Assembly: GCA_031291415.1 (NCBI GenBank)
Contig: JARLJB010000255.1
Location: 1 to 46,266 of the forward strand
Length of the DNA stretch: 46,266 nucleotides
Direction: 5' to 3'
Source of the DNA: Telmatospirillum sp.
GTDB lineage: Bacteria > Pseudomonadota > Alphaproteobacteria > Rhodospirillales > Magnetospirillaceae
Below are positions 5,285 through 30,240 of this stretch, piece by piece. A program made the position numbers and the translations under genes. The notes under the pieces were generated by a model. That model was not told where the DNA came from and did no database searches. It saw nothing but the letters and a program-made list of their open reading frames with translations. How positions within the stretch are numbered: position 1 is the first letter of the stretch; each line of letters opens with the position of its first letter.

Positions 5285-6655
5285 ATGAGCATGCCCGTTC
5301 GTTCCGACCATCCGAAGATCACCTTCATCGGCGCGGGAAGCACCGTATTCGCGCGCAATCTTCTGGGGGATATTCTGTCCCGGCCAGCCTTGCAACGGTC
5401 GCGCATCTGTCTGTTTGATGTCGATCCGACGCGCTTGGCCTCGTCGGAAAAAGTTGCGCACCGGGTGGCCGGGGTTCTGGACTGCCGGCCGGCGATCGAG
5501 GCGACGACCGACCTCGAGCGCGCCCTCGACGGCGCCGACTATGCGATCAACATGATTCAGGTCGGTGGCTATAAGCCCTGCACGGTCACCGATTTCGAAA
5601 TTCCCAAGCGCTTCGGCCTGCGCCAGACCATCGGCGATACGCTCGGTATCGGGGGAATCATGCGGGCGTTACGGACGGTTCCCGTTCTAAGCGCGATGTG
5701 TCGGGCCATGGAGCGCCTGTGCCCGGACGTCGTGCATCTCAGCTACGTCAACCCGATGGCGATGAACTGCTGGGGGTTGGCAAGGACCACGACGATCAAG
5801 ACCATCGGCCTGTGCCACAGCGTGCAGCACACCGCCGGAGAATTGGCCAGGGATATCGGGATTGACCTCGAAGAGATTTCCTATACCGTCGGCGGCATCA
5901 ATCACATGGCGTTTTTCCTGCGTTTCGAGCGCGCCGGCGAGGATCTTTATCCTTTGGTCCGCAAGGTCATCGAAGACGGCCGCGTACCGCCCGGTAACCG
6001 CGTCCGCTATGATATGTTCGAACGGCTTGGTTTCTTCGTGACGGAATCCAGCGAACATTTCTCGGAATATGTGCCGTGGTTTATCAAGCGCGGCCGGCAA
6101 GACCTTATCGAACGATTCAATATTCTTCTCGACGAGTATCCACGCCGCTGCGAACAGCAAATCGCCGAATAGGAGCAGCAACGCGACAGTCTGGAAAATC
6201 CGACCACGGCCTTTACCGTCAACCGAAGTGTCGAATACGGGTCGCAAATCATCGACAGTCTGCAAACGGGCACACCATCAGTGATCTATGGCAACGTCGT
6301 CAATGGCCCGTTGATCGAGAACCTGCCGGCCGACTGTGTCGTCGAGGTTCCGTGCCTCGTCGATGGCAACGGCATTCGGCCGATTCCCATCGGTCGAATG
6401 CCAGTCCATCTGGCGGCGTTGATCCAAACCAACGTCAACGTCCAGGCCTGCGTGATCGAGGCTTTGATGGCGGGCAAACGCGAGCATGTCCATCATGCAG
6501 CGATGCTTGATCCCCATACCGCCGCCGAGCTTGATCTGAACCAGATCCACGAACTGGTCGATACGCTGCTCGACGCCCACAGGAACTGGATTCCTCCGGC
6601 TCTATCGATCGTCACGGACGGGCCGGAGTGTCGTGCATCTGCTTCAAAAGACTGA
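5285..6655 (+). pseudogene. Glycoside hydrolase family 4 (alpha-galactosidase-like) interrupted by one in-frame TAG
   Basis: The start is the ATG at 5285 behind AAGGGGAAGG. The product shows the GH4 NAD site (KITFIGAGSTVFARNLLGDI), the nucleotide-side segment YAINMIQVGG, the Asn motif NPMAMNCWG, the Cys-His metal motif GLCHSVQHTA and GINHMAFFLRF. At codon 296 (6170-6172) the frame meets TAG, but coding continues in the same frame with no shift: EQQRDSLENPTTAFTVNRS, then the GH4 C-terminus (CVVEVPCLVDGNGIRPIPIG, LDPHTAAELDL). Read through, the protein would be about 456 residues, normal for GH4. GH4 enzymes need NAD and Mn. The simplest reading is a nonsense mutation in a decaying operon. The 3' end overlaps the converging ceramidase-like gene by 44 bases. 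Confidence 0.85.
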
Positions 6656-7952
6656 CAACCGCGGAAGCCGCGGCCTCGCCAGAACCACGGGCATAGCGCG
6701 AGTTCCGCGCTTCATAGGTGAAGCGGCCGTAACTGGCGGCATCGGGCATGTATTTGGCGATGCCATCGACCATCGTCAGCACGATAGTGTGGGCGAAGGG
6801 CGAGCCGATTTTGATCTGCGTTCCGACGCTCGCGGCAAGCTCTGCCTGAAAACCCACAAGCACGATATCGCCGATCTGTATCAGAACCACGGGGACCCCG
6901 ACCTTTGCGCCCGGTTGGTAGGTGTAGGACGTAACCGGCCCGCTGGATGCACTCTCGGGCGAGGCGGCCTGCGATATCACCTCCACGCTGCTGCGGAGAA
7001 TTCGCAGTTTCGGGGTGTTGGTCGACGAGATCTCTTCGCTCACCCTGAGGACGTCGCCCCCCAAGCGCTCGCCAAGCAAATCCACCAGAGTAAACCCTGC
7101 GTCATGAATATCGTTTCGCGACACGCTGCCGTCTTTATTGGCCACGTAACGATCGGCCATGAGATAAGGCGCCTGATCGCCGGCCGCTCCGACCAAAAAC
7201 ATCGCCACCATGCCGGAGCCGTAATGCGTTTCCAGATAGCGCGTCGCCGCGCCGGCAAGGTCCGCAGAAACCAACTTTCCCCCCTTCTCACTTTCCGAGT
7301 CGCTCATGATCGAGGATTGCACGGCATGGTTCATCAACACAGCCAGCGGCTTGCCATCAAGGGTATTGAGCCGGAGCACCGCGAGAGAAGAATCGGCGTA
7401 GCCGGTCTCATTGGCCCCGAACCACCAGCCCCTGGCTGTCGGAACGTCACGATTGACATTCACCCGACTATTGCCAAGACCGAAGCCCAACCGCGCCGGC
7501 TGCAGCGTCGAAGTGGCCTGCGTTGTCGCGGCCTGTACTGCCGCACCGATCGCCAGCCCGAGAGCCGCGTCCTTCTCCTTCAAATTGGCGGCCGAGTGGT
7601 CCAACGGAAGCACATGGGGCGCCGAGAAGGTATGGCTGGCACAGACAATGATATTGTCTGATGAAACGCCGGCCGCCTTGTTCAGTATAGCCTTCGCATT
7701 GGCGATGACCTCGTCCGAGATGGAGGTCAGGTCCATCACGACGATCCCGATCCGCTCGCTGCCGTCTTCCATGAGCAAGACCCGCACGGCGAGCGGATCG
7801 TGCTGGCCGACGAAGCCGTCAATTGGATAGAGATCGGCGGGGATTTGGATGTCCGCCCGCCCGACTCCGGCGTTAAAGGCTCCTGCTTCCGCCCCGTTTC
7901 CAAAGACCATCAAAGCAAAAATAACCGCTTGTACCAGAAGGGGAACCCGCAT
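6612..7952 (-). CDS. Secreted neutral/alkaline ceramidase-family protein
   Basis: 446 residues beginning MRVPLLVQAVIFALMVFG, a Sec signal peptide ending near AEA-GAF; AGAGGA lies 10 bases before the ATG. The mature start FNAGVGRADIQIP is typical of the neutral ceramidase N-terminal domain, as are GIVVMDLTSIS, LMNHAVQSSIM and FLVGAAGDQAP. It is shorter than the well-known Pseudomonas ceramidase (about 670 residues) and lacks the C-terminal domain. The family's metal motif, usually HTHSGP, reads SHTFSAPH, so one histidine is replaced by Phe, although a His follows nearby. Ceramidases hydrolyse ceramide to sphingosine and fatty acid outside the cell, which would fit the sphingoid genes downstream. 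Because of the altered motif, activity is uncertain. Confidence 0.78.
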   Translation of the reverse strand: MRVPLLVQAVIFALMVFGNGAEAGAFNAGVGRADIQIPADLYPIDGFVGQHDPLAVRVLLMEDGSERIGIVVMDLTSISDEVIANAKAILNKAAGVSSDNIIVCASHTFSAPHVLPLDHSAANLKEKDAALGLAIGAAVQAATTQATSTLQPARLGFGLGNSRVNVNRDVPTARGWWFGANETGYADSSLAVLRLNTLDGKPLAVLMNHAVQSSIMSDSESEKGGKLVSADLAGAATRYLETHYGSGMVAMFLVGAAGDQAPYLMADRYVANKDGSVSRNDIHDAGFTLVDLLGERLGGDVLRVSEEISSTNTPKLRILRSSVEVISQAASPESASSGPVTSYTYQPGAKVGVPVVLIQIGDIVLVGFQAELAASVGTQIKIGSPFAHTIVLTMVDGIAKYMPDAASYGRFTYEARNSRYARGSGEAAASAVVSLLKQMHDTPARP

Positions 7953-8064
7953 CAATACTTTGTCCTCTTTGCAACTTTACGAAGGAATGTTTCTAGAACG
8001 GGACGGGCCACAAGAAGGGACTCTTCGTCGCCACATGTTGCTTGAGCTGCCTGGCCTTTCCGGC

Positions 8065-8322
<258 letters not shown>

Positions 8323-8593
8323 TCATGAATCCGTCTCATGCGTCCAAGCCGTTCTTACCACCTAATCGCGTACCGCCGCACCTGTCAAATTCCCACCATC
8401 CGCAGTGTGGGAAGCGCATCCCCTTCGTCTGACTCTTGTCGACCGCCAAGGTCGGCACCGTCGCCATAAAGCGATCGAGGCGATGAAACATTCAGAAAGA
8501 AAATCAGACCATTGATCATATTTTTACGGGACATCCTGCTCTCCGACAGACGAAAAACGGACATATTCCAGCAAATTTTGCAAATTCTTGACG

Positions 8594-8622
8594 TTGACAC
8601 ATGATCGTTGATCACATATTAA
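8594..8622 (+). promoter_or_regulatory. Sigma-70-like promoter with an internal palindromic operator
   Basis: TTGACA (8594-8599) and TATTAA (8617-8622) are separated by 17 bases. The spacer carries the palindrome TGATC-GTT-GATCA (8602-8614), so a protein bound there would block RNA polymerase. It lies about 50 bases before the leader reading frame and the aldolase operon. The binding protein is unknown; the TetR regulator at 12589 is one candidate. The rest of the 355-base gap from 8323 holds nothing I can assign. Confidence 0.5.
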
Positions 8623-8669
8623 TTGAAGACGGGATCAATATCCATCCCTTCAGCGGGAGGAGGAAGAGT

Positions 8670-8741
8670 ATGCACCCATGGCTGATGCATCTTTGGTCAC
8701 CCCCCTTTTTATGCCCGAACGCCAAAGGTCGGCGCCGATGA
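8670..8741 (+). CDS. Possible 23-codon leader peptide coupled to the aldolase start
   Basis: An ATG at 8670 sits 6-7 bases after a near-perfect ribosome site (GGGAGGAGGAAG). It opens a 23-residue frame rich in Trp, Pro and terminal Arg (MHPWLMHLWSPPF... ending GRRR). The stop TGA at 8739-8741 overlaps the ATG at 8738 in the form ATGA, the classic layout for translational coupling. The strong ribosome site fits this frame better than the alternative aldolase start at 8678. No homologue is recognised; it may be only a fortuitous frame. Confidence 0.35.
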   Translation: MHPWLMHLWSPPFLCPNAKGRRR

Positions 8742-9385
8742 GCCGGTTTACGGCCGCCCGCTGGAGCGTCGTGGATGCCTGCGTCGCCTTGGCCGATCGC
8801 GGATACCTTGCCGGTATCGGCGGGAATGTCGCCTTGCGCCTCGATGAACAGCATCTGGCCGTCACCCCGACCTCGGCGGATTATTACACCATGACCGCCG
8901 ACGACATCTGCGTCCTCAGCCGCGATACGCTGGCCGTGGTCGAGGGACAACGGGCGCCGACGGTGGAAAAATCACTGCACGCGGCAATGCTCGCCTTCCA
9001 CACCGATTGCCGGGCCTGCGTCCATACACATCAGCCGGTGGCGAGCGCCGTCGCGCTGCTGTCGGTGGACTTGCCCCTTGGCGACCGTCACCGCACCCGG
9101 CTGGGAGAATTGGCGGCACTGGTGCCCTATGCCCCCTCCGGCACGGCGCTGCTGGCCCGAGCCCTCAAGAAGACGTTGAGACCGGGCAATCGCGCCTATC
9201 TGATGCGCAATCATGGCGTTATCTGCGCCGTCCCGACCCTCGATGATGCGCTGGCCGATCTCGGCGCCATCGAATCGGCGGCAGCCGCATTTTTGCTGGC
9301 GAGACTGCGAAACGACGACCTGCCCCCCGGAATTGCGGCACTGGCCATAGAGAAGCTTGAGCACATCGCCCACACCGTCAGCTGA
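8738..9385 (+). CDS. Class II aldolase (fuculose-phosphate-aldolase type)
   Basis: From the ATG at 8738 the protein has 215 residues, the normal family length. A start at 8678 would add 20 residues of unconserved sequence. Family motifs are intact: GIGGNVALRL (phosphate-loop side), the catalytic Glu in PTVEKSLHAAML, the zinc pair HTH in CVHTHQPVAS, and the third zinc His in LMRNHGVI. Such enzymes split ketose 1-phosphates or related hydroxy-ketones into dihydroxyacetone phosphate and an aldehyde. It is first of a four-gene operon with an aminotransferase (16 bases downstream), an aldolase-like paralogue and an SDR enzyme. In this lipid setting the aldehyde side could be long-chain, but the substrate is not shown by the sequence. 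Confidence 0.87.
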   Translation: MSRFTAARWSVVDACVALADRGYLAGIGGNVALRLDEQHLAVTPTSADYYTMTADDICVLSRDTLAVVEGQRAPTVEKSLHAAMLAFHTDCRACVHTHQPVASAVALLSVDLPLGDRHRTRLGELAALVPYAPSGTALLARALKKTLRPGNRAYLMRNHGVICAVPTLDDALADLGAIESAAAAFLLARLRNDDLPPGIAALAIEKLEHIAHTVS

Positions 9386-9401
9386 GAGAGGAAGCACACC
9401 G

Positions 9402-10862
9402 ATGAACGTCTCCGCCGTCCCTTCCCGGTCGACTTACGCCATCAGCGCCTGGACCGACACGGATCAGGTTTATCGCCGCCTCAATGCCTTGTTGAAACTG
9501 CCGCCACGGCCGATCAGGCGCGATGCGATGCAAGACGTCCTCAACTACTTCGACAACCGCTGCCGGCGCTCGAAAGAGTTGGCCGCACGCGCCGCCGAGA
9601 TCATTCCCGGTGGCGTGCAACACAACCTGGCCTTCAACTATCCCTTCCCTTTGGTGGCCGAAAAATGCGACGGCCCTTACATGTGGGACGTCGACGGTAA
9701 CCGCTATATCGATTTCCTGCAGGCAGGCGGCCCGACGCTGCTCGGTTCCAATGACAGAACCGTCCGGCATCGGGTGCTGGAACTGCTCGACAGCTGCGGT
9801 GCGGTGACCGGACTATCGCACGAATACGAGATAAAGCTGGCAGAACTGATCCGCAGCCACATGCCGAACATCGAAATGTTTCGCATGCTGGGATCCGGCA
9901 CCGAGGGCGTGATGGCGGCCATCCGGCTGGCCCGCGCCTATACGTCGAAAAAATGGATCATCAAAGTTGGTGGCGCCTATCACGGATGGAGCGACCAGAT
10001 GGTCTATGGCATGCGCTTGCCCGGTACCGGCCGGCGAGAAGCCGTTGGCATTCCCAAAGCCTCCACGGCCTATACCCAGGAGGTCTTTCCCAATGATCTC
10101 GGTGCGCTGCGGCGCAAACTGTGGCTGAACCGTCTGCGCGGAGGAACGGCCGCGGTCGTCGTCGAACCGTTGGGACCGGAAAGCGGAACACGGCCGGTGA
10201 CAGAGGATTACAATCGGCAAGTACGCGCCCTGTGCGACCAATTCGGCGCCCTGCTGGTCTTTGACGAGGTGGTGACCGGCTTCCGTGTCGGGCTTGGCGG
10301 GGCACAGGGCTATTTCGGCGTCAGACCGGATCTGACGGTGTTCGGCAAATGTCTGACCGGCGGCTACCTGATGGCCGGCGGCGTTGGCGGCGCCAGGGAT
10401 GTCATGATGCTGCTGGCTGGAGGTATCGGAGCGACCAGTCGTCGTGCCTTTGTCGGGGGCACCCTGTCCGCCAATCCTCTATCCTGCGTCGCAGGATTTT
10501 ACGCGATCGAAGAGATGGCCCGCACCAACGCCCCGGTGCTTGCCGGCAAAGCCGGCGACAGGTTGTGCCGGGGCTTGAATGCAATCATCGAGCGGCGCGG
10601 CTTGCCCTACGTCGCCTACAACCAGGGCTCGATCGTTCATCTTCAGACCTCGGCGGTCCTGTTGATGAGCATGCGCAACCCGCTCAAGCTGATGAAAGAG
10701 GCGATGGCGCGCAAGCATATGATGGAGGAGATCGGAGCCGCCTATCTCGCCCACGGCATTCTCACCCTGGCCGGCAGTCGGCTCTACACCAGCATGGCCG
10801 ACACCGACGAAGTCATCGACGACGCCTTGGCGCGCTTTGACCAGGTATTGGGGTTGGTGTAA
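9402..10862 (+). CDS. Class III PLP aminotransferase (glutamate-1-semialdehyde aminomutase-like)
   Basis: 486 residues from the ATG at 9402, behind GAGAGAGGAAG. Fold-type I class III features are present: GGVQHNLAF, GPYMWDVDGNRYIDFLQAGG, LGSGTEGVMAAIRLARA, the PLP-ring aspartate in LLVFDEVVTGFR, and the Schiff-base lysine near residue 316 in VFGKCLTGGYLMAGG. It differs from HemL by an N-terminal extension of about 40 residues (TDTDQVYRRLNALLKLPPRP) and by its context between two class II aldolase-family genes. It probably transaminates or deaminates an amino alcohol or amino ketone; a sphingoid base is a candidate by context. Its stop overlaps the next gene's start by one base, so the genes are co-translated. 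Confidence 0.88.
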   Translation: MNVSAVPSRSTYAISAWTDTDQVYRRLNALLKLPPRPIRRDAMQDVLNYFDNRCRRSKELAARAAEIIPGGVQHNLAFNYPFPLVAEKCDGPYMWDVDGNRYIDFLQAGGPTLLGSNDRTVRHRVLELLDSCGAVTGLSHEYEIKLAELIRSHMPNIEMFRMLGSGTEGVMAAIRLARAYTSKKWIIKVGGAYHGWSDQMVYGMRLPGTGRREAVGIPKASTAYTQEVFPNDLGALRRKLWLNRLRGGTAAVVVEPLGPESGTRPVTEDYNRQVRALCDQFGALLVFDEVVTGFRVGLGGAQGYFGVRPDLTVFGKCLTGGYLMAGGVGGARDVMMLLAGGIGATSRRAFVGGTLSANPLSCVAGFYAIEEMARTNAPVLAGKAGDRLCRGLNAIIERRGLPYVAYNQGSIVHLQTSAVLLMSMRNPLKLMKEAMARKHMMEEIGAAYLAHGILTLAGSRLYTSMADTDEVIDDALARFDQVLGLV

Positions 10863-11473
10863 TGGAAATCGTCTCGTTGCGCCGCGCCGCGGCGCGCCTG
10901 ATTGGCAAGAAGCTGCTCCAGCCCGGCGACAGCCTGTCCTGCCGCCTGACGGACCAAGCGCTCGCGGCAAGTTTGCGCATCGGCGCCGACGGCGGCGTTG
11001 GTGCCGATCACCAGTTGTTGCAACCCGACGCGGCGGCCCCGCTCAACTCGCACGAAGGGATCTATGGACGCCGTCCCGATGTGGGAGCCGTCGTTTTTTC
11101 ACAACAACCGTGGGCCACAGCTCTGATAAAGGCGCCGCGCGCCATGCCCGGGCTGTTCGACGAGCAGGTCCGCCATCTTGGTTCGACGATTGCCAAACTC
11201 GACGTCTCAACGCTCGCCACCGGGAACAACGGCTTCCTGCTCGATGACGCCGTTCTATGTCTGGGCGTGACCCTCGAACGCGCGGTATACAACGTGGAAT
11301 TGTTGGAGAAATGCGCGACAGCCTACCTCCTGGCGACGACCACCGGCACGCGACCGACATGCGTCCCCTGGGTGATCCGCCTGATCGCCGGCAGGCGTTT
11401 GCGCCGCGACGAACGCTATGCGGCCGATTGCCACAGGCAAGGCAGGATTCCGGTTTTCAAATCCGCCTATTGA
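10862..11473 (+). CDS. Class II aldolase-like protein lacking the metal-binding histidines
   Basis: 203 residues. The aldolase/adducin fold is recognisable from LNSHEGIYGRRPDVGAVVFS and GNNGFLLDDAVLCLGVTLE. However, the zinc motif normally written V-H-T-H reads FSQQPWATA here, so both histidines are gone, and the third, in N-H-G, reads GNNGF. The catalytic Glu position (LNSHEGIY) appears kept. It starts at the last base of the aminotransferase stop codon. It may be a regulatory or structural partner of the intact aldolase at 8738 (a hetero-oligomer) or a metal-independent binding protein. It has no stops or frameshifts, so it seems to be under selection rather than decaying. Confidence 0.75.
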   Translation: MEIVSLRRAAARLIGKKLLQPGDSLSCRLTDQALAASLRIGADGGVGADHQLLQPDAAAPLNSHEGIYGRRPDVGAVVFSQQPWATALIKAPRAMPGLFDEQVRHLGSTIAKLDVSTLATGNNGFLLDDAVLCLGVTLERAVYNVELLEKCATAYLLATTTGTRPTCVPWVIRLIAGRRLRRDERYAADCHRQGRIPVFKSAY

Positions 11474-11527
11474 AGTCGTCACACCGCGTGACGGCACCGC
11501 CCCCCAAAGTTCCGGAGAGATCCGAGC

Positions 11528-12562
11528 ATGCAAACGGCACTTGTGACAGGTGGAAGCGGATATGTGGCAGGGCATTTGGTAGACCTTCTGTTGATGGAAG
11601 GGTACCGGGTCCACACGACGGTGAGAAGTCTTTCAAAACAGAAAAAACTATTGAATCTTAACCGTCTAAGAAATATGCACCCGAAAGATCTAAAACTATT
11701 CGAGGCTGATCTTTTGCAGGAAAAATCCTTTGACGAGGCGATGAAAGGTTGTGATGTCGTTTTTCACGTTGCATCGCCTTTTCTCATGCCGGAACAAATC
11801 AAGGATGGTCAAAAGGATTTGCTGGAGCCAACCCTCAACGGCACCAGAAACGTTCTGAATTCCGTTAACAGATACGAGAGCGTCAAAAAAGTCATCTTCA
11901 CGTCGACAGTTGGGGCGATATTTGGAGATTATTCTGACGTATACGATATGGAAGATGGCGTTCTTCGGGAAAAATATTTTAACTCGTCAAGTACACTTCA
12001 AAACAATCCATATCATTATTCAAAAACGATAGCTGAACAGGAAGCGTGGAAAATTTGCAAGAATCAGAACCGTTGGAAAATGGTTTCCATAAATCCTGGA
12101 CTGATACTCGGTCCATATTGGACACCAACATCGGATTCTGGAAGCTTACATCTGCTGGACGAACTGCTGAAAGGGTACTTCTTCTACGGAGCACCAAATT
12201 TCAGTTTTACTTATGTCGATGTCCGTGACGTGGCATTGGCCCATTTGCGAGCGGCCGAGCGAGACGATGCGTCCGGCCGCTATATCGTCGCCGAGAAAGC
12301 GATGATTTCATTCCTGGATATGTCTCTCATCATCGGCCCTGCCCACAAACACCCCTGTCTCCTGCCCACGCATACCGTGCCGGACTGGGCCGTTCGCATG
12401 TTGGGGCCATTCTTCGGATTAACTCAGGATTACATCCGCAAACACCTGGGAATATGTTTTGCCGTCGATAACCAGCGAAGCATTGATGAGCTTGGCATGG
12501 TTTATCGGCCCATTTCACAAACGCTGACGGATCATTACCAGTCTTGGCTTCAGTGGCGGTAA
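11528..12562 (+). CDS. NAD(P)-dependent extended SDR (dihydroflavonol-reductase-like)
   Basis: 344 residues with the Rossmann motif TGGSGYVAGHLVDLLL at the N-terminus, DVVFHVASPF, the catalytic Ser region FTSTVGAIFG and the YxxxK pair in YHYSKTIAEQ. NPGLILGPYWTP and FTYVDVRDVALAH are typical of DFR/cinnamoyl-CoA-reductase-like enzymes, which reduce ketones or aldehydes with NADPH. It follows the aldolase-like gene by about 55 bases and has its own ribosome site (CCGGAGAGA). The first two thirds (roughly 11640-12200) are visibly AT-richer than all neighbours, with Lys, Asn and Ile codons, while the end returns to local composition. This hints at a transferred or recombinant gene. The substrate is unknown. 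Confidence 0.85.
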   Translation: MQTALVTGGSGYVAGHLVDLLLMEGYRVHTTVRSLSKQKKLLNLNRLRNMHPKDLKLFEADLLQEKSFDEAMKGCDVVFHVASPFLMPEQIKDGQKDLLEPTLNGTRNVLNSVNRYESVKKVIFTSTVGAIFGDYSDVYDMEDGVLREKYFNSSSTLQNNPYHYSKTIAEQEAWKICKNQNRWKMVSINPGLILGPYWTPTSDSGSLHLLDELLKGYFFYGAPNFSFTYVDVRDVALAHLRAAERDDASGRYIVAEKAMISFLDMSLIIGPAHKHPCLLPTHTVPDWAVRMLGPFFGLTQDYIRKHLGICFAVDNQRSIDELGMVYRPISQTLTDHYQSWLQWR

Positions 12563-14407: not shown

Positions 14408-14737
14408 CCTCGTACGATCGACTTTCCCAGAATAGTCCGGCGACGTCGCCGACGCCAGCGCGAAGCGTCTGAAAAGACAGACTTCATCTGACGGTGTTTC
14501 CGCAATTGTCCGGTGTTTTTCCCCCGCCGTCCTGTTTTTGCGTCTTGTTATCGTTACAATGTCATGGAAGGGTCACATCTCGTCCACTCGCACGGACAAC
14601 GACGATCCGGCGTGGGAATACCAAGCTGTCTCCAAGAGTAACTTGGTGCGTGAAACATAACTCCATCGACAACGACAGGCCTTTTGATTTTGTAACACAA
14701 ACATAAATCAAGACCCAACAAGTGGAGCTAACTATAC
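14408..14737. promoter_or_regulatory. Divergent control region of the AraC gene and the eleven-gene operon
   Basis: This 330-base gene-free gap lies between divergent starts. It contains two direct copies of CGGTGTTT at 14492-14499 and 14511-14518, spaced 19 bases start to start, close to the two-turn spacing of AraC-family half sites. A 14-base perfect palindrome, CGGCGACGTCGCCG, lies at 14438-14451. The end nearer 14738 becomes AT-rich (TTTTGATTTTGTAACACAAA), as expected for an activator-dependent promoter, but I could not fix clear -35/-10 boxes. GTGGAG 10 bases before the ATG at 14738 is the ribosome site. Confidence 0.4.
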
Positions 14738-16168: not shown

Positions 16169-16199
16169 GCCTTGCTTTCGATAAGGGAGGGGTCAGACG

Positions 16200-17873: not shown

Positions 17874-17908
17874 ACTGGACCCGGCCTCCGACCAAGGAAG
17901 AACGACGG

Positions 17909-21306: not shown

Positions 21307-21354
21307 CGGGCGGCATGCGCCGTCCGCCACGCAAACCGAAAGGCAAGGAAGATC

Positions 21355-22791: not shown

Positions 22792-22800
22792 AGTTCGGCC

Positions 22801-24384
22801 ATGACAACAGGACCTTACGTTCTTGCCGTCGATCTCGGCACCAGCGGACCGAAGGTGACGCTGGTGTCGCTGTCGGGCGCCATCGTGGCGTCCGGACGCG
22901 CCTATGTCGAGACGATTCATACCGCGGACGCGGGGGTGGAACAGGATGCCGAAGCGATTTGGACGGCAGTGAAACAGGCGATCAAGGCGACGCTGTCCGG
23001 TGCCGACGTCCGGCGCGAAGACATCGTCGCCATCGGCTGCGCCAGCCAGTTTTCGTCGATCGTTGCCGTTGATGGCCAGGGACGGCCGACCATGAACATG
23101 CTGATGTGGGCCGACAAACGGGGCACCAAGGCCGACCTTGGCCCGCTTCCGAACTTTCCCTCCGGGGTCGACCGGCCATGGCATCTGCTGCGTTGGCTGA
23201 GAGTCCACGGCATTCCGCCGGTCGAAGCGGGGACGTCGCTTGGACATATGCGCTTCATCAAGTTTGCCCGGCCGGACGTCTATGAAAGAACGGCCAAGTT
23301 TCTCGAGCCGATGGACTACCTCAATCTTCGTTTGAGCGGACGTGCCGCAGCCAACCAATGCACGGCGTTCCTGATGCTGCTGGTCGACAACCGTACGCTG
23401 AACTCGACGCGCTACGATCCGGCCCTGGTCCGCGCCTCGCTGATCGACCGGGAAAAACTGCCCGACTTGCTGCCCTGCGAGGAAATCGTCGGCACCCTGT
23501 TGCCCGAGGTCGCGGAGGAACTTGGCCTGGCAAAGGAAACCAAGGTGGTCGGAGCCATCAACGACACGCAAGCCGGGGCCCTGGGATCCGGCGCCTTCCT
23601 GGGAAATGCCGGCGCCATCGCGATTGGCAGCACCAGCGTCATGTTCACCCATGTGCCGTTCAAAAGAACCGACGTCCGCAATCTGATTCTCAGCATGCCA
23701 AGCCCGGTCCCGGACAAATATTTCGTCATGGCGGAAAATGGCGTGGCCGGAGCGGCTATCGAGCATTTCTTCAATAATCTGGTACTGGTGGCCGACGATT
23801 TCGGCGCGCTATCGAGCCACAACAAATATCAACTGCTGCAGGCCGCGGTGGAAAGCGTCCCCTCCGGCGCCGATGGCGTCATGTTCCTTCCCTGGCTCAG
23901 CGGCGCCTGGGCCCCCTGCGGCGATGCGAAAATGCGCGGCGGCTTCATCAATCTTTCCATGAATACAACACGTCGCCATCTGGCCCGCGCCATCCTCGAA
24001 GGCGTGGCCCTCAATATGCGGTGGCTGAAGGGACCGACCGAACGCTTCGCCAAACGGAAATTTTCGCATTTCGTCTTCCATGGCGGCGGCGCCGAATCAT
24101 CGATCTGGGCGCAAATCATGGCGGATGTCTTGACCACCCCAGTCCACCAGATCGAGCACCCACAATTCACCAGCGGCCTCGGAATCGCCAGCGCGGCCTT
24201 TACTCATCTTGGGATGACTGATTTCGAACAGTTTCAAAGGAAACTGAAGATCAAGGCCATCTTTGACCCCAATAAGCTCCATGCGAGCATGTACGAAGAT
24301 ATGTCGGAGAAGTTCATCCACGCATTCAAGGCGACACGTTCCATTTACCGCAAAGGGTCACGAACAGGGTTTTGGGCGAATTGA
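22801..24384 (+). CDS. FGGY-family carbohydrate kinase (candidate sphingoid-base kinase)
   Basis: 527 residues. The N-terminal phosphate loop YVLAVDLGTSGPKVTLVSLS, the segment GVEQDAEAIW and MLMWADKRG are standard for FGGY kinases such as xylulokinase. GAINDTQAGALGSGAF and the C-terminal ATP site (HFVFHGGGAESSIWAQIMAD, then QFTSGLGIASAAFTHLG) are intact. The enzyme class phosphorylates hydroxyls of sugars and polyols. It lies only 9 bases after the lyase gene and 38 before the aldehyde dehydrogenase gene. If the lyase acts on a 1-phosphate, this is the only kinase in the cluster able to make it. That would be an unrelated fold doing the job of sphingosine kinase (normally DAG-kinase family). 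An ordinary sugar-kinase role is the alternative. Confidence 0.85.
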   Translation: MTTGPYVLAVDLGTSGPKVTLVSLSGAIVASGRAYVETIHTADAGVEQDAEAIWTAVKQAIKATLSGADVRREDIVAIGCASQFSSIVAVDGQGRPTMNMLMWADKRGTKADLGPLPNFPSGVDRPWHLLRWLRVHGIPPVEAGTSLGHMRFIKFARPDVYERTAKFLEPMDYLNLRLSGRAAANQCTAFLMLLVDNRTLNSTRYDPALVRASLIDREKLPDLLPCEEIVGTLLPEVAEELGLAKETKVVGAINDTQAGALGSGAFLGNAGAIAIGSTSVMFTHVPFKRTDVRNLILSMPSPVPDKYFVMAENGVAGAAIEHFFNNLVLVADDFGALSSHNKYQLLQAAVESVPSGADGVMFLPWLSGAWAPCGDAKMRGGFINLSMNTTRRHLARAILEGVALNMRWLKGPTERFAKRKFSHFVFHGGGAESSIWAQIMADVLTTPVHQIEHPQFTSGLGIASAAFTHLGMTDFEQFQRKLKIKAIFDPNKLHASMYEDMSEKFIHAFKATRSIYRKGSRTGFWAN

Positions 24385-24422
24385 TACTGCCACAGGGCAG
24401 AAATACATCAGAGGAAGAGGAT

Positions 24423-25901
24423 ATGAACGCCACGCCCCCGCAGGAACCTCTGGCTGACGACCGATCTCCGGCCGAAAGTGATCCCCGGCACATCAGGGCG
24501 GTCTTCGACGGTCACCGGGAAACGGCTTTGCGCTGGCGTTACTCCACTGCGAAGGAGCGGATCGTCCGCATCAAAAGACTGCGCGATGCCATGATGACAA
24601 AGCGCGATGCCTTGTACGACGCGTTCTCGTGCGATTTGCGCAAGCCGGCCGCCGAAGTGGAAGCATCCGAACTGCTGCCGGTCATGGACGAGATGCGCCA
24701 TGCGATCGGACGAATCAAGAGTTGGATGAAACCCCACAAGGTCCATCCGACCGCCACCATGCTGGGGACATCCGGTTGGGTCCAGTATCAACCGCGCGGG
24801 CGCGTGCTGATCATGGCGCCCTGGAATTACCCATTGAACCTCTGCCTCGGTCCGCTGGTGTCGGCGCTGGCCGCCGGAAATACCGCCATCGTCAAACCAT
24901 CGGAGATGGCCCCGTCGGTGTCGGCGCTGCTGACCGGCATCATCAGCGAAACCTTTCCCCGATCCGAAGTCGCGGTCTTCGAAGGTGGATTGCCGACGGC
25001 GCAGGCTCTGCTCGATCTGCCGTTCGATCACATCTTCTTCACCGGCTCGCCTTCGGTCGGCAAGATCGTCATGACCGCCGCCGCCAGACATCTCACCAGC
25101 GTTACGCTGGAATTGGGCGGCAAATCTCCGACCATCGTCGGCCAAACTGCCGATATCCGTCTTGCCGCCGAAACCTTGATGTGGGGCAAGTTTCTCAATG
25201 ACGGACAGACCTGCGTCGCGCCGGACCATGTCTATGTGCACGACTCGGTAAAGCAGGATTTCATCGCCGAATGTCTCAAGGTGCTTCGTGCGCGCTACGG
25301 TGAAACCCCAAACGGGCGAAAGCAGACGCCGGATCTCACGCATGTCGTCAACCGTCGCCACGCCCACCGTATCGCCGCGCTGCTTGCCGACGCGACCGAA
25401 CGGGGCGCCCGAATTCTGATCGGCGGCGACGTCGACATCACGGACAACTATGTCGCACCGACGCTGATGGACCGGGTGCCGGCCGATGCAAAGATCATGG
25501 AAGAGGAAATCTTCGGTCCGCTGCTGCCGATCCTGGATTTTTCCCAACTGGACCAGGTGATCGCCGACATCAATGCCCGCCCGAAACCACTCGCTCTCTA
25601 CCTCTGGAGCCGAGACCGGCAGGAAATCGACCAGGTGATGGGGCAGACGACCTCGGGCGGCGCCTGCATAAACCACTGCATGATGCAGTTTGCCCACGGC
25701 GGGTTGCCTTTCGGAGGCGTCAATACTTCGGGCATCGGCAATGCGCATGGCCATTATGGCTTCAGAACGTTTTCCCACGAACGCGCTGTCCTGCGCTCAT
25801 CACCTCTGATGCTGGTCAAGATGTTCTATCCGCCATACACGAAATCCCGCAGCCGCATCATCCGCCGGGTTGTCGATATGCTGCGCCTGCCCATGTTGTG
25901 A
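24423..25901 (+). CDS. Aldehyde dehydrogenase, class 3 / fatty-aldehyde type
   Basis: 492 residues from the ATG at 24423 (AGAGGAAGAGG ribosome site). ALDH3-type features include VLIMAPWNYPLNLCLGPLVS, IVKPSEMAPSVSALL, FFTGSPSVGKIVMTAAA and the general-base Glu in VTLELGGKSP. The nucleophile Cys is in NDGQTCVAPDHV, and EEEIFGPLLPIL and LPFGGVNTSGIG complete the set. The C-terminus carries an extra hydrophobic/basic stretch (FYPPYTKSRSRIIRRVVDML), reminiscent of the tail of membrane-associated fatty-aldehyde dehydrogenases. It would oxidise the long-chain aldehyde left by lyase cleavage to the fatty acid. The lyase, kinase and dehydrogenase genes form a tight trio. Confidence 0.9.
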   Translation: MNATPPQEPLADDRSPAESDPRHIRAVFDGHRETALRWRYSTAKERIVRIKRLRDAMMTKRDALYDAFSCDLRKPAAEVEASELLPVMDEMRHAIGRIKSWMKPHKVHPTATMLGTSGWVQYQPRGRVLIMAPWNYPLNLCLGPLVSALAAGNTAIVKPSEMAPSVSALLTGIISETFPRSEVAVFEGGLPTAQALLDLPFDHIFFTGSPSVGKIVMTAAARHLTSVTLELGGKSPTIVGQTADIRLAAETLMWGKFLNDGQTCVAPDHVYVHDSVKQDFIAECLKVLRARYGETPNGRKQTPDLTHVVNRRHAHRIAALLADATERGARILIGGDVDITDNYVAPTLMDRVPADAKIMEEEIFGPLLPILDFSQLDQVIADINARPKPLALYLWSRDRQEIDQVMGQTTSGGACINHCMMQFAHGGLPFGGVNTSGIGNAHGHYGFRTFSHERAVLRSSPLMLVKMFYPPYTKSRSRIIRRVVDMLRLPML

Positions 25902-26017
25902 GACTTGCTAAGGGACAAATGCCGCACTGCCTGCAGGCGGTGAACAACAGAAAGAGAACACCGCCAGATCGAAGATCTTTGTACCCAAACGACGAAAGAA
26001 CGGAGGATCGCAACGCC

Positions 26018-27205
26018 ATGGAGTCCGGATCTTCACCGACGCCGACGTCGAACCAGATCGGCCTGGCGCTGTTCATGGGTTCGACCGCTCTTCTGATGCT
26101 TGGACTGCAGCCGATTCTATTGGGCGAATTGGTGGACAAGCACGTCATTACGATGGAAGGGGTCGGGATCGTCGCCATGGGGGAGATCGTTGCCCTGGGA
26201 GTGGGGGTCGCGCTGGGTGATGCCGTGCTTCCCCTGGCCCGCTACAGACTCATCGCCGCGATGGCCGCGCTTGCGGTGGGAACGCTCGATGCGGCCACGC
26301 TTCAGGTCACGGGCGACGCCGCATTTTCCGCCTTGCGCGGAGCGGCCGGTTTGGCGGAGGGCGTGCTGGTGTGGATAGCCACCAGTCTCATTGTCCGCAC
26401 GGACAAGCCGGATCGCCTGGCGGCGATTTTCATGGTCGTCCAGACCATCAGCCAAACGGGAATGGCGCTGGCGCTGGCGACCTGTGTCGTGCCGCAAGGC
26501 GGTTGGCGGGGAGGTTTCCTGGTCCTGGCTGCGGCGACATCGGTTTGCGCCCTTCTCGCCCTTGGACTTCCACCTGGTCTGCGGCCACTGACGCCCCCCA
26601 CGACCGAGAAGACCTTCAGCTGGTCGACCACCACCCTGCTGCCCCTGGCCACCGCCTTCCTGCAGATGGCGGCGATTGGATCGCTGTGGGCCTATCTGGA
26701 ACCGCTCGGCGTAAGGGTCGGCTTCGGGCCTGAGGGTGCGCAAGCCATGGTTTCGGAAGTGCTCTGTTTGCAAGTCGCCGGCGGCATGTCCGCCATTTGG
26801 CTGGTCCGCCGGTTCGATATTGCGCCGACCTTGGGGACCGGGGCTTTGGTATTGGCGGCGGTCGCTGGCGGCATTTGGCTCCTGCCGGCCGGCGCCACGC
26901 TGAAGTTCTCCCTGTTCTGCGCTGTTTTCGGTTTTTCCTGGCTGTTTCTCATGCCGTTCCACTTTGGCCTGGCCTTGCGGGTCGACGCCAAGGGCCGGAT
27001 CGCCATGCTCGTTCCAGCGGCGCAACTTCTCGGATCGGCTTTTGGTCCGCTGACGGCGTCACTGGTGGTAAGCGGCGACGACGCGACCCCCGTTCCCCTC
27101 ATCAGTCTCGGCTTCGCCGCTTGCACCGTCGCTCTCGTCCTATTCGGACGCAAGCGGTGGACGACAACACACGGGTCCTGCGACGCGCCCCGCGTCGCCA
27201 CGTGA
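26018..27205 (+). CDS. Major facilitator superfamily transporter
   Basis: About 395 residues from the ATG at 26018, seven bases after a CGGAGGATCG ribosome site. An upstream in-frame extension to 25898 has no ribosome site and is soluble in character. Many hydrophobic helices are evident (LALFMGSTALLMLGLQPILL, VAMGEIVALGVGVALGDAVL, AALAVGTLDAATLQ, FCAVFGFSWLFLMPFHFGLA). The mid-protein loop is short. It resembles MFS members of unknown substrate often linked to aromatic or lipid catabolic genes. It lies within the operon, 116 bases after the dehydrogenase, and may carry a product or the free base across the inner membrane. Confidence 0.8.
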   Translation: MESGSSPTPTSNQIGLALFMGSTALLMLGLQPILLGELVDKHVITMEGVGIVAMGEIVALGVGVALGDAVLPLARYRLIAAMAALAVGTLDAATLQVTGDAAFSALRGAAGLAEGVLVWIATSLIVRTDKPDRLAAIFMVVQTISQTGMALALATCVVPQGGWRGGFLVLAAATSVCALLALGLPPGLRPLTPPTTEKTFSWSTTTLLPLATAFLQMAAIGSLWAYLEPLGVRVGFGPEGAQAMVSEVLCLQVAGGMSAIWLVRRFDIAPTLGTGALVLAAVAGGIWLLPAGATLKFSLFCAVFGFSWLFLMPFHFGLALRVDAKGRIAMLVPAAQLLGSAFGPLTASLVVSGDDATPVPLISLGFAACTVALVLFGRKRWTTTHGSCDAPRVAT

Positions 27206-27251
27206 CGTGGCGGACGAATGGCTCAAGACCAAGAGGACAGGAGGAGAAAAA

Positions 27252-27569
27252 ATGCCATCCCAGCGAGTCTTGCTTGCCGCCTTCCTGCTGGCCATCCCCG
27301 TATCGTCGCGAGCCGAACTCACCGAACGGCAGAGTCTGCTGCTCAACAATAACTGCCTGCAGTGTCACTCACGGGAAAATACCGGCGCACCGCTGATCGG
27401 CAATCCGGACGACTGGAAAGAACGCAACAGGCAGGGCGAAGAGGGACTGTTGCGCCATGTCATCCAGGGGCTGCGCGGCATGCCGCCGTTCGGCTATTGC
27501 GCGGCATGCGATGAAGCCGATTTGCGCGCCCTCATTCGCCGGATGTCGGGTTTGGACGGGGGAAGATGA
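27252..27569 (+). CDS. Periplasmic mono-haem c-type cytochrome (electron acceptor of the next gene's enzyme)
   Basis: 105 residues; ATG at 27252 after AGGAGGAGAAAA. A signal peptide (VLLAAFLLAIPVSSRA) precedes one haem site, NNCLQCHS (CXXCH). The likely axial methionine is in LRGMPPFG. A further CAAC without histidine (GYCAACDEADL) is seen near the C-terminus, perhaps a disulphide or metal pair. The stop overlaps the start of the oxidoreductase gene (ATGATG), so the two are made together. The protein probably takes electrons from that FAD enzyme. A mono-haem cytochrome is, as I recall, also part of the sphBCD set of Pseudomonas aeruginosa. Confidence 0.9.
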   Translation: MPSQRVLLAAFLLAIPVSSRAELTERQSLLLNNNCLQCHSRENTGAPLIGNPDDWKERNRQGEEGLLRHVIQGLRGMPPFGYCAACDEADLRALIRRMSGLDGGR

Positions 27570-28969
27570 TGCATCTTAGCCGCCGTAAATTACTTCGGAC
27601 CGCCGCCTCCGGGGCAATTGCTTCGCTTTTGCCGGGATGCGGTCCCCGCAACACGGAACCGCAGATGCCGGTCGGTTACCAGCTTGGCAAACCACTGCCT
27701 TGGGTCAATTGGGCCGGCAATCAGTACTGCTATCCCGCGAAACGGCTGGGCCCCGGCACCGAGGCCGAAATTGTCGAAGCACTTCGTCGGGCACCGGGCG
27801 TGGTTCGCGCCGTCGGCGCCAGCCATTCCTTCACTGCTCTGGTGCCGACCGACGGCACGCTGATTGCCACCGATCTGTTGAGCGGCCTTGCCGGTCACGA
27901 TGATGCGACATCGCAGGCGGAGGTTTGGGCGGGAACGCGCCTGCACGATCTTGGACCGATGCTTGCCGACATTGGACAGGCGTTGCCCAACATGCCGGAC
28001 ATCGACTACATCGCGCTCGGCGGCGCCATCGCCACCTCAGCCCATGCCACTGGCTCGCAGTTCGGATCCCTCTCAAGTACCGTGGTCGGTTTGAGCCTCG
28101 CCACGCCGGACGGCCGACTGATGGAATGTTCGGCGACCCAAAACCGCCAACTGTTTGCCGCCGCTCGCGCCTCGCTCGGGGCATTGGGCGTGATTACCCG
28201 GATCCGGCTTCAGAACGAACGATCCTTTCAACTCACCGAAGTCAATCGGGTCGAGCACACCGAGGACATTCTCGCCGATCTCGACGAGCGCGTCGCGCGG
28301 CATCGGCATTTCGAATTCCTGCCGATCGTCCATTCCGATCTGGCCGTCACCGTCTCGACCGACCTGGCTCGACCGGGTGACCAGGACGCTGGCACGGAAA
28401 ACCCTCAGGCCGTCAATACGCTGCGCAAGGCTTTCGATGCCATCGGCTGGATGCCCGGCGCCGATCGGATTTACGACATTCTGCTGGAGACCGTCTCGGG
28501 CGGCGATCGGACAATTCGCACGGGACCGTCCTACACGGTATTTCCGCATGTGCGCGAGGTCCGGTTCCGCGAAATGGAATACGCCGTGCCGGCCGACGCC
28601 GGCCCCGCATGCCTGCGCGAGATCCTTGAAACCATCCGCAGGCGGAACATTCCGGTGTGCTTCCCGCTGGAGTACCGTCGCATCGCCGCCGACGACATCT
28701 GGCTGTCAATGTTCGAAGGACGGCCGAGCGCGTCCATTTCCGTCCATCAATTCGGCGATCTCGACCACAAAGCCTATTTTGCCGAAATCGAACCGATCTT
28801 CTGGAAGTACGAGGGGCGCCCCCATTGGGGCAAGCTCCATTCGCTCGATGCCACGCGGCTGGCGGCCCTCTATCCCCGTCACTGGAAGGATTTCCGCGAC
28901 GTCCGTGGCGAGATCGATCCTGAGGGCAAGATGCTCAATCCCCACCTGAAAACGATTTTGGGAGGCTGA
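27566..28969 (+). CDS. Tat-exported FAD-dependent oxidoreductase, ALO/alditol-oxidase type
   Basis: 467 residues. The N-terminus (MMHLSRRKLLRTAASGAIAS then LLPGC) combines a twin-arginine motif with a lipobox-like Cys, suggesting a folded, membrane-anchored periplasmic flavoprotein. FAD_binding_4 features are VVRAVGASHSFTALVPTDG, where the His is the usual covalent FAD site of this family, and ALGGAIATSAHATGSQFGSL. The C-terminus is of the D-arabinono-lactone/alditol oxidase type (HWGKLHSLDATRLAALYPRH, DPEGKMLNPHLKTIL). Relatives oxidise primary alcohols of polyols or lactones. With the cytochrome before it and a PLP enzyme after it, oxidation of the C1 alcohol of a sphingoid base is an attractive but unproven role. 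Confidence 0.88.
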   Translation: MMHLSRRKLLRTAASGAIASLLPGCGPRNTEPQMPVGYQLGKPLPWVNWAGNQYCYPAKRLGPGTEAEIVEALRRAPGVVRAVGASHSFTALVPTDGTLIATDLLSGLAGHDDATSQAEVWAGTRLHDLGPMLADIGQALPNMPDIDYIALGGAIATSAHATGSQFGSLSSTVVGLSLATPDGRLMECSATQNRQLFAAARASLGALGVITRIRLQNERSFQLTEVNRVEHTEDILADLDERVARHRHFEFLPIVHSDLAVTVSTDLARPGDQDAGTENPQAVNTLRKAFDAIGWMPGADRIYDILLETVSGGDRTIRTGPSYTVFPHVREVRFREMEYAVPADAGPACLREILETIRRRNIPVCFPLEYRRIAADDIWLSMFEGRPSASISVHQFGDLDHKAYFAEIEPIFWKYEGRPHWGKLHSLDATRLAALYPRHWKDFRDVRGEIDPEGKMLNPHLKTILGG

Positions 28970-28971
28970 CC

Positions 28972-30240
28972 TTGATCTCGCGTCGCATCCTTCTGGCGGG
29001 CGGAGCCGCCGCTGCCATCGCGGTGGCCTTGGCCAGACCCCGCGAATTCAGCGGCGGACATTCGGCCTATTTCGCCAATTTGAATACCATGTTGCACAAC
29101 GAGGGCATCGACCGGCCAGTACTGCTCATCGACCTGGACCGGCTTGACCGCAATATCGACCGCCTTGTCGCCTCGGCCAGAACTGGTACGCCGCGCAACT
29201 ACCGCATTGCAGTCAAATCGGTACCGACTCCCGGCCTGGTCGATTACATCGCCAGCCGGGCCGCAACCAATTCAGGCATGGTCTTCGATCGTCCTTTCCT
29301 TGAAGACATGGCCCGCCTGCGGCCACGGTCGGACCTGCTGCTCGGCAAGCCGATGCCGGTGGCGGCCGCCGCGACGTTTTACGATCATGTCCCTGGCGCC
29401 TTCGATCCATCGCGACAGCTGCAATGGCTTATCGATTCTGATGCACGGCTGGCACAATACCTTGAGTTGGCCCAGGATCGCCGGCTCAGGATGCGCATCA
29501 ATCTGGAGATCGATGTCGGGCTGCATCGTGGTGGCTACGCCGATCCAGCAGCTTTGGCCGGTGCCCTCCAGACGATTGCCGATCATCCGGAGCTCCTCAT
29601 TTTTTCAGGCTTCATGGGCTACGACGGTCATCTCCTCGGGCTGCCTGGATTTCTGGCCGACGGCGAGGCATCCAAGGTGAAACAACGCTATGGCGCCTTC
29701 GTCGACGTCCTGCGCCGCCGGTTTCCGCAGTTCGCAGGCACTCCTTTGACCTTCAACGGTGCCGGCAGCCCGAGCTTCCGCTATCACGAAAGCGGATCGC
29801 CGCTGAACGACATTTCGGTGGGATCGGCATTGCTCAAGCCGGCACATTACGACCTGCCCCTCATCGCCGATTTCGAGCCGAGCGCCTTCATCGCCACACC
29901 GGTTCTCAAACGAGGGGCAAGCAACGGAATTCCCACCATGGAATGGCTGGGCGGTCCGATGGTGACCTGGGACCGGAACACGACGGACATGCTGTTCACT
30001 TACGGCGGCAATTGGCTGGCCGAACCATTGTCCCCGACCGGCGTACGTCCGGCCGGGCTTTATACCAGCTCGAACCAGGAGGGCTATTACGCAGCGAAAG
30101 GCGTGGCGCTGGCAGTCGACGATTTTCTCTTTCTGCGGCCGACCCAGTCCGAAGCCGTGCTTCTGCAATTCGGTGATCTGCTTGGGGTGCGCGGGAGTAC
30201 CGTCGAACAGCGCTGGCCGGTCCTCACGGTCGGCCTGTAG
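28972..30240 (+). CDS. Tat-exported fold-III PLP enzyme (D-threonine-aldolase/alanine-racemase-like)
   Basis: 422 residues starting at TTG (28972), six bases after GGGAGG and two after the preceding stop. The N-terminus MISRRILLAGGAAAAIAVAL is a twin-arginine signal, so the enzyme would be exported folded with its cofactor. DRPVLLIDLDRLDRNIDRLV and NYRIAVKSVPTPGLVDYI (Schiff-base Lys near residue 82) begin the PLP barrel. RINLEIDVGLHRGGYADP, FSGFMGYDGHLLGL and TFNGAGSPSFRYH are typical of the D-threonine-aldolase/DSD1 group. That group splits beta-hydroxy-alpha-amino acids. A sphingoid base oxidised at C1 would have exactly that 2-amino-3-hydroxy pattern. Last gene of the operon. Confidence 0.85.
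   Translation: MISRRILLAGGAAAAIAVALARPREFSGGHSAYFANLNTMLHNEGIDRPVLLIDLDRLDRNIDRLVASARTGTPRNYRIAVKSVPTPGLVDYIASRAATNSGMVFDRPFLEDMARLRPRSDLLLGKPMPVAAAATFYDHVPGAFDPSRQLQWLIDSDARLAQYLELAQDRRLRMRINLEIDVGLHRGGYADPAALAGALQTIADHPELLIFSGFMGYDGHLLGLPGFLADGEASKVKQRYGAFVDVLRRRFPQFAGTPLTFNGAGSPSFRYHESGSPLNDISVGSALLKPAHYDLPLIADFEPSAFIATPVLKRGASNGIPTMEWLGGPMVTWDRNTTDMLFTYGGNWLAEPLSPTGVRPAGLYTSSNQEGYYAAKGVALAVDDFLFLRPTQSEAVLLQFGDLLGVRGSTVEQRWPVLTVGL

Follow-up and report, generated by a model that had tools for sequence, protein, structure and literature searches.

What is encoded by a run of eleven same-strand genes (14738-30240, +) in Telmatospirillum sp. that joins lipid-transport-type proteins to enzymes resembling those of sphingoid-base breakdown? 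The run lies in a window of 46,266 nt (positions 1-46266), which lies on contig JARLJB010000255.1 of a 7.1 Mb alphaproteobacterial genome. Profile matches assigned its genes, in order, to DUF1329, DUF1302, MMPL, a YCF48-like protein, a pyridoxal phosphate (PLP) lyase, an FGGY-family kinase, an aldehyde dehydrogenase (ALDH), a major facilitator superfamily (MFS) transporter, a cytochrome c, an ALO flavoprotein and a fold-III PLP enzyme, with intergenic gaps of -4 to +116 nt that rest on start codons picked by us. A first-pass annotation had described the eleven co-directional genes correctly and proposed that, with their neighbors, they form a complete system for the import and degradation of sphingoid bases. 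Sphingoid-base catabolism is supported as the best reading because the lyase is nearest to a proven enzyme and because the sphBCD-like genes and the SphR-like regulator and operator match the sphingosine regulon of Pseudomonas aeruginosa; the proposal needed correction on the kinase family and the ceramidase. The locus is likely to be a catabolic island that was acquired horizontally and serves to degrade free long-chain (sphingoid) bases.

The lyase and the kinase beside it

The lyase gene (21355-22791, +) was compared with all sequences in the PDB. Its best match was the sphingosine 1-phosphate (S1P) lyase BPSS2021 of Burkholderia pseudomallei (667 bits), and the next nine matches were all named S1P lyase or the BST1 form of it (406 down to 217 bits). 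The THK motif containing the PLP lysine aligned with that of the known S1P lyase. By sequence the gene is an S1P lyase, in agreement with the first-pass reading, and the identity that had been named in advance as fatal to that reading, an amino-acid decarboxylase, was rejected since the top decarboxylase reached only 81 bits. According to PMC5234717, BPSS2021 and BPSS2025 are both active on S1P with a Km of ~50 uM, in an assay coupled to human fatty aldehyde dehydrogenase.

Among 385 alphaproteobacterial genomes including its own (four candidates scored per genome), 45 matched the lyase at E<=1e-30, with the best match after the window gene reaching 250 bits and 37% identity, and a search of four same-genus genomes gave no match at E<=0.001. 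Scanning genome contigs confirmed 109 lyase relatives. The best 80 of these 109, which are the lyase loci counted below and carry L-numbers, were 53-65% identical and came from many phyla by record title; most are from metagenome bins, and a few taxon labels look wrong. A close lyase was present in two of 249 Burkholderiaceae genomes and a distant one in one (six candidates scored per genome). The lyase gene looks horizontally acquired, because close alphaproteobacterial and same-genus relatives are missing and the nearest relatives are scattered over many phyla.

The adjoining kinase gene (22801-24384, +) matched only FGGY domains in Pfam (FGGY_N and FGGY_C, 127 and 86 bits), and no DAGK_cat domain (PF00781) was detected. 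The first-pass annotation was right that a kinase is present, but the protein is not a sphingosine-kinase homologue. FGGY genes accompany the lyase in most loci: in 57 of the 80, tblastn placed one within 3 kb on the lyase strand, upstream of the lyase in 43 and downstream in 14, with the gap between alignments at most 124 nt in 45 of the 57. Of the remaining 23 lyase genomes, 21 hold a window-type FGGY kinase elsewhere (288-553 bits), bringing the total to 78/80; in L062, L068 and L136 the FGGY gene is on the lyase-bearing stretch, farther away than 3 kb. When the 1009 open reading frames (ORFs) called in the lyase loci were clustered, the lyase cluster covered 70 loci and the FGGY cluster 54, followed by clusters of 13, 11 and 11, so no other conserved neighbor approaches the kinase in frequency. 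The ORF map of the loci is noisy, and the adjacency counts were taken from tblastn. A Pfam tally of lyase neighbors (108 of 263 ORFs), headed by MFS proteins (6), was of little help: its distance rule passed over most genes that lie between the two, including most inositol monophosphatase (IMPase) genes. None of 39 distant lyase-like loci had an FGGY gene above 60 bits in its flanks, which mostly spanned 1.5 kb.

An IMPase-family cluster was seen in 11 loci (L058, L062, L068, L069, L076, L077, L080, L081, L087, L128 and L136); in 10 of these loci its members adjoin the kinase or the lyase, and two members scanned singly matched PF00459. These genes are perhaps linked to inositol-containing sphingolipids.

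Co-occurrence was counted across 237 genomes from the same class as G804, whose locus (L088) is titled Acidimicrobiaceae, with six candidates scored per genome and bit-score thresholds (360 for the lyase, 220 for the kinase) fixed after viewing gaps in the score lists. A close lyase was present in 53 genomes and the kinase in 56; 52 had both, one had the lyase only, four had the kinase only and 180 had neither, counts on which Fisher's test ignores phylogeny. Of the 51 genomes with only sub-threshold lyase-like matches, three had the kinase, including G1198. Among the 385 alphaproteobacterial genomes (three candidates scored per genome), the next FGGY protein after the window kinase scored 186 bits. 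Together, the neighbor and co-occurrence counts indicate grouping beyond chance.

To place the kinase within its family, we built a tree of 74 kinases that included the full-length proteins from 54 of the 80 lyase loci, the other 26 having given none. The window kinase, the 54 lyase-locus kinases and a kinase of Burkholderia ambifaria formed one clade (support 100/99), with a Butyrivibrio kinase as its sister (99/91); Escherichia coli XylB, GlpK, LyxK, AraB, FucK and RhaB and 11 paralogues, some on long branches, fell outside. Three lyase-kinase pairs from metagenome-assembled genomes titled 'Bifidobacterium breve' (L114, L130 and L132) grouped with Acidimicrobiia in this tree, and their labels look wrong.

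The catalytic Asp255 is kept in all 55 window and lyase-locus kinases. At the positions of XylB Met77-His78 and the GlpK Arg-Glu pair, which we take to be the sugar-contact residues of the E. coli enzymes, all 55 have an aromatic residue (Y 37, W 11, F 7) followed by Ser, Ala or Phe (39/9/7). His149 (54/55), Glu169 (55/55) and Asp196/Arg198 (55/55) also mark the group. An AlphaFold model of the window kinase (predicted local distance difference test score, 91.7) has the FGGY fold and is nearest in fold to gluconate, xylulose and glycerol kinases. The protein scored below all 12 NCBIfam cut-offs shown (236 bits against the XylB model, with a cut-off of 380), and assignment as a pentulose or glycerol kinase was rejected on these cut-offs, the tree and the active-site residues. 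We infer that the FGGY kinase would make the S1P, acting on the serinol-like head of sphingoid bases.

Alternatively, S1P could come from a conventional DAGK-type kinase encoded elsewhere, with the FGGY kinase catalyzing a downstream step, and the genome does carry one DAGK_cat gene, on contig C44. We consider this unlikely: DAGK_cat genes were found in 13 of 14 control genomes, so their presence says little; the gene is off the window contig while FGGY genes adjoin the lyase; and no step calling for an FGGY enzyme is obvious for the products of the lyase, phosphoethanolamine and aldehyde.

sphBCD-like genes and a SphR-like regulator

The last three genes of the operon encode a SphB-like cytochrome c (27252-27569, +) with a signal peptide and a CxxCH motif, 44% identical to P. 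aeruginosa SphB over 71 aa; a SphC-like ALO flavoprotein (27566-28969, +; 48% over 469 aa; TIGR01679, 426 bits) with a twin-arginine signal; and a SphD-like fold-III PLP enzyme (28972-30240, +; 50.5% over 400 aa). Twin-arginine stretches are present in the window SphC and SphD proteins and in P. aeruginosa SphC, where the stretch is upstream of the annotated start. The SphD-like enzyme is a weak relative of D-3-hydroxyaspartate aldolase (PDB 6qkb, 27 bits). The P. aeruginosa record used for comparison (L233) is annotated with a cytochrome c5, an ALO protein, a DSD1-family PLP enzyme, a transporter and sphR, giving the order sphB-C-D, sphA, sphR when names are assigned by position from PMC3900636. 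The cytochrome c, ALO and PLP set picked out by the first-pass annotation therefore matches sphB-sphC-sphD in both order and homology. The P. aeruginosa record is labeled a plasmid (p1B17416), and it looks like a chromosomal piece because pyrE and argB lie beside sphBCD and sphR.

LaBauve and Wargo proposed in PMC3900636 that the base is oxidized at C1 and then cleaved by an aldolase to glycine and an aldehyde. A stereochemical argument that we add here fits this scheme. Oxidation of C1 of a (2S,3R) base shifts the priority order at C2 and would yield a D-configured beta-hydroxy amino compound, which would suit a fold-III enzyme with weak similarity to D-3-hydroxyaspartate aldolase. In the periplasm, SphC and SphB would oxidize C1, and SphD could split the D-configured 2-amino-3-hydroxy product into glycine and aldehyde. 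According to PMC11893366, sphingosine accumulates in the absence of sphBC, and the product is given as unknown.

The divergent AraC-family gene (13298-14407, -; Arabinose_bd, 140 bits; HTH_18, 63 bits) encodes a protein homologous over its full length to P. aeruginosa SphR (33% identity over 325 aa). According to PMC3900636, the SphR site consists of two half-sites TGNCCSNNRNNSNCC spaced 6-8 bp apart. A candidate operator lies at 14497-14532 (+), in the gap that separates the AraC gene from DUF1329. It has two direct half-sites with one mismatch each and a 6-bp spacer, and no other pair in the window stays within one mismatch per half-site. Such a pair occurred in 2 of 5000 resampled intergenic sequences. 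The same scan of the P. aeruginosa stretch returned exactly two perfect pairs, one ahead of sphB and one between sphA and sphR. Single half-sites are about as frequent as chance predicts (138 matches, 131 expected), so only the spaced pair is informative. The AraC regulator noted in the first pass is thus SphR-like, and we infer that free bases would induce the island through this activator at 14497-14532.

The island thus shares with the P. aeruginosa SphR regulon (sphA, sphBCD, cerN and sphR) the sphB-C-D order (44/48/50% identity), an AraC activator and a direct-repeat operator of the SphR type beside the regulator gene. It differs in that SphA of P. aeruginosa belongs to PF13557 rather than DUF1302, no S1P lyase, FGGY kinase or ALDH is annotated in the 11-kb P. 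aeruginosa stretch, and the window has no convincing cerN.

A proposed route from sphingoid base to fatty acid

The operon begins with genes for a DUF1329 protein (14738-16168, +; 376 bits, with a weak LolA-like match), a DUF1302 protein (16200-17873, +; 397 bits), presumably in the outer membrane, an MMPL/resistance-nodulation-division (RND) inner-membrane transporter (17909-20311, +; 72 bits; start set by a ribosome-binding site) and a YCF48-like beta-propeller (20308-21306, +; 86-88 bits), all four as listed in the first pass. An MFS transporter (26018-27205, +) scored 30.5 bits against MFS_1, below the cut-off of 33.4, and is 41%, 40% and 46% identical to proteins at L062, L068 and L234. 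The ALDH (24423-25901, +) had twelve best PDB matches at 298-392 bits, among them the fatty aldehyde dehydrogenase 4qgk at 329 bits, with the next group at 172 bits or less; by sequence it is of the ALDH3/fatty-aldehyde class, as first supposed, and its substrates are probably fatty aldehydes.

These assignments suggest the following scheme. The DUF1302/DUF1329/MMPL/YCF48 set, and probably the MFS protein, would carry the base across the envelope. The FGGY kinase would then phosphorylate the C1 hydroxyl of the serinol/glycerol-like head, and the S1P lyase would cut between C2 and C3 to give phosphoethanolamine and a long-chain aldehyde, a reaction demonstrated for its Burkholderia relatives (PMC5234717). 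The ALDH3 enzyme would oxidize the aldehyde to a fatty acid.

The scheme resembles the eukaryotic pathway in its lyase family and ALDH3/fatty aldehyde dehydrogenase class, and differs in having an FGGY kinase in place of DAGK_cat, the family to which eukaryotic sphingosine kinase belongs. The canonical ceramidase, sphingosine kinase, lyase and dehydrogenase chain named in the first pass is therefore not literally present, since the ceramidase is doubtful and the kinase comes from an unrelated family, although the broader reading of sphingoid-base catabolism is supported.

The closest loci in overall content are those of Burkholderia pseudomultivorans and Paraburkholderia oxyphila (L062 and L068), which cluster the lyase, AraC, FGGY kinase, DUF1329, DUF1302, MMPL and MFS genes, with YCF48 in L062 and ALDH in L068. 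They differ from the island in having an IMPase-family gene beside the kinase or lyase and no sphBCD match in the stretches searched; none of the 80 lyase-locus stretches matched the cytochrome c, ALO or SphD proteins at E<=1e-5. The earlier statement that no described bacterium is known to join all these parts is therefore nearly contradicted by the Burkholderia-type loci. The words kinase, operon, gene cluster, adjacent and upstream are absent from PMC5234717, and we found no paper in the open PMC literature naming a bacterial kinase that feeds S1P lyase.

The kinase and lyase could instead be a conserved pair for a non-sphingoid substrate, such as a smaller phosphorylated 2-amino-3-hydroxy alcohol or a sugar-like amino-polyol. 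FGGY kinases usually act on small polyols, and free-living Acidimicrobiia, Chloroflexota and Myxococcota account, by record title, for many of the genomes with the pair; these groups are not known to meet sphingolipids often. This explanation seems improbable to us given that the lyase is nearest to an enzyme proven on S1P (PMC5234717) and that the island also has sphBCD, a SphR-like gene and operator, a fatty-aldehyde-class ALDH and lipid-transport-type genes.

Least probable is an island for another hydrophobic compound (a sterol, terpene or alkylglycerol) whose side product the lyase and kinase handle: the transport set is generic, DUF1329 and DUF1302 are each mentioned once in a paper about an RND transporter in monoterpene metabolism (PMC6394551) and an FGGY kinase, PA3024, has been proposed for P. 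aeruginosa glycerolipid metabolism (PMC8151288), but the 30 window ORFs scanned hold no ring-cleavage, steroid or terpene families apart from a generic 3-beta-hydroxysteroid dehydrogenase (3-beta-HSD)-type match of an epimerase, and the lyase, sphBCD and SphR-like set is specific.

Several observations weigh against sphingoid-base catabolism by way of the FGGY kinase. BPSS2021 retains ~8% activity on unphosphorylated sphingosine (PMC5234717), so a kinase is not strictly needed, and the DAGK_cat gene on C44 leaves room for a conventional lipid kinase. FGGY enzymes normally bind small sugars. The pairing has exceptions: the L073 genome has no window-type FGGY at E<=1e-20, the best match in L084 is 77 bits, one of the 53 G804-class genomes with a close lyase (G1122) lacks the kinase, and four have the kinase only (G1305, G1111, G1220 and G1198, where it lies beside a partial lyase match). 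The sphD gene is dispensable in P. aeruginosa, as reported in PMC11893366. On the regulatory side, AraC identity to SphR is just 33% and the SphR operator consensus is degenerate. The gaps between AraC and kinase genes in L062 and L068 contain a pair with a 6-bp spacer and two mismatches per half-site, and a control stretch (L062:2190-3180) also gave a one-mismatch pair and looser pairs, which makes the operator evidence for Burkholderia-type loci weak. Lastly, a Variovorax plasmid (L238) carries homologues of the DUF1329/DUF1302/MMPL/YCF48 genes at 52-70% identity with no S1P lyase or kinase match in the 22 kb read, so the transport set is not diagnostic; this stretch, which is unannotated in its record, has three ALDH matches at 28-30%.

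The ceramidase proposed as the entry enzyme was not borne out. The putative secreted protein (6612-7955, -), of doubtful membership, scored 28.1 bits against PF04734 (24.1 in a second scan), below the cut-off of 32.1 and with under half of the profile matched, and a PDB search returned no ceramidase at E<=1. Neutral ceramidases have their catalytic serine in a GDxSPN motif, where the translation has GDQAP. We therefore rejected it as unproven.

The second operon and a possible phytosphingosine route

The first-pass gene set included the core operon and the AraC gene but overlooked a second operon (8678-12562, +) that precedes the AraC gene and is followed by an oppositely oriented TetR gene (12589-13230, -; TetR_C_22 and TetR_N). 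Its first gene encodes a FucA-like class II aldolase (8678-9385, +; Aldolase_II, 120 bits), with L-fuculose-phosphate aldolases as its best PDB matches (at most 69 bits). An alignment with E. coli FucA showed the Glu/His-x-His/His set of that enzyme to be conserved here and in the B. ambifaria and Butyrivibrio fibrisolvens aldolases; we take these residues to be the general acid and the three zinc ligands of FucA-type aldolases. It is followed by a glutamate-1-semialdehyde aminomutase-like class III aminotransferase (9357-10862, +; Aminotran_3, 160 bits; likely start ATG at ~9402), 72-74% and 58% identical to its B. ambifaria and B. fibrisolvens counterparts. A short class II aldolase-like protein (10862-11473, +; Aldolase_II, 31 bits) lacks the metal-ligand residues in the alignment and is possibly a partner subunit. 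The fourth gene encodes an NAD-dependent epimerase/dehydratase resembling 3-beta-HSD (11528-12562, +; Epimerase, 103 bits).

Similar modules occur elsewhere. A B. ambifaria plasmid groups FGGY (34% identity), aldolase (45%), aminotransferase (74%), short aldolase-like (41%), ALDH (56%), epimerase (59%) and MFS (46%) genes, with no S1P lyase match in 19.6 kb, and the cluster adjoins a PF06127 Mpo1-like gene (82 bits). Yeast Mpo1 acts on the 2-hydroxy fatty acid formed from phytosphingosine, and the Pfam family name agrees. A B. fibrisolvens plasmid groups FGGY, aldolase, GtrA and aminotransferase genes (kinase 26%, aldolase 29% and ALDH 33% identical to the window proteins), and no lyase is among the genes annotated over 21 kb. 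A search of 22 of the 80 lyase genomes for the aminotransferase gave no match better than 208 bits (31-40% identity), which suggests that the aldolase module is separate and does not travel with the lyase. Ethanolamine-phosphate phospho-lyase, presumably a relative of class III aminotransferases, was kept as a weak alternative for the aminotransferase, because the 58-74% identical relatives adjoin FGGY and aldolase genes with no lyase near.

We tentatively raise the possibility that the island holds a second, previously undescribed sphingoid-base route that follows sugar logic and is aimed at phytosphingosine, so that three routes would be combined. The FGGY kinase would form phytosphingosine 1-phosphate, and the aminotransferase would convert the C2 amine to a ketone, yielding a lipid ketose-1-phosphate hydroxylated at C3 and C4. 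A cut between C3 and C4 by the FucA-like aldolase would then release dihydroxyacetone phosphate and pentadecanal, which an ALDH would oxidize. Like the L-fucose/L-rhamnose pathway, the proposed route combines FGGY kinase and FucA-like aldolase families; unlike that pathway, it also involves a class III aminotransferase and is tied to a lipid operon, and the 30 window ORFs scanned include no sugar isomerase. Counting against this route, the two aldolase-linked kinases lack the aromatic-Ser signature of the lyase-linked kinases, with Thr-Glu and Met-Gln at the first two positions and Asn and Asp at position 169, so their substrate may differ.

A perfect palindrome, TGATCGTTGATCA, lies upstream of the aldolase operon (8602-8614) and is a candidate TetR operator. 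It is the sole exact copy in the window; allowing one mismatch gave five matches (2.07 expected), a number reached in 10 of 100 shuffles. The palindrome was not seen by eye in two further stretches inspected.

Farther out, both flanks carry sugar-metabolism genes. The eight best matches of the sugar-transport ATPase in the window are Sinorhizobium and Ensifer proteins at 73-74% identity, as would be expected of an alphaproteobacterium. A tRNA-Gly(TCC) gene immediately to the right of the island (32385-32458) is a possible integration landmark, and no integrase was found among the 30 window ORFs scanned with Pfam. On the left, a minus-strand ORF (7977-8339) has no Pfam match, and the minus-strand sequence at ~8180-8330 resembles, by eye, a decayed LysR start.

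Bacterial S1P lyases have already been characterized, and a dedicated FGGY sphingoid-base kinase, if true, would fill the kinase gap as a non-homologous replacement of the eukaryotic enzyme, paired with the lyase in ~8 phyla by record title. The pair would let annotators spot sphingolipid-consuming bacteria by sequence. The joined sphBCD genes are relevant to the question of the role of SphBC in P. aeruginosa, and the phytosphingosine aldolase route, if it exists, would add a new pathway for the sphingolipids of plants and fungi in soil and rumen.

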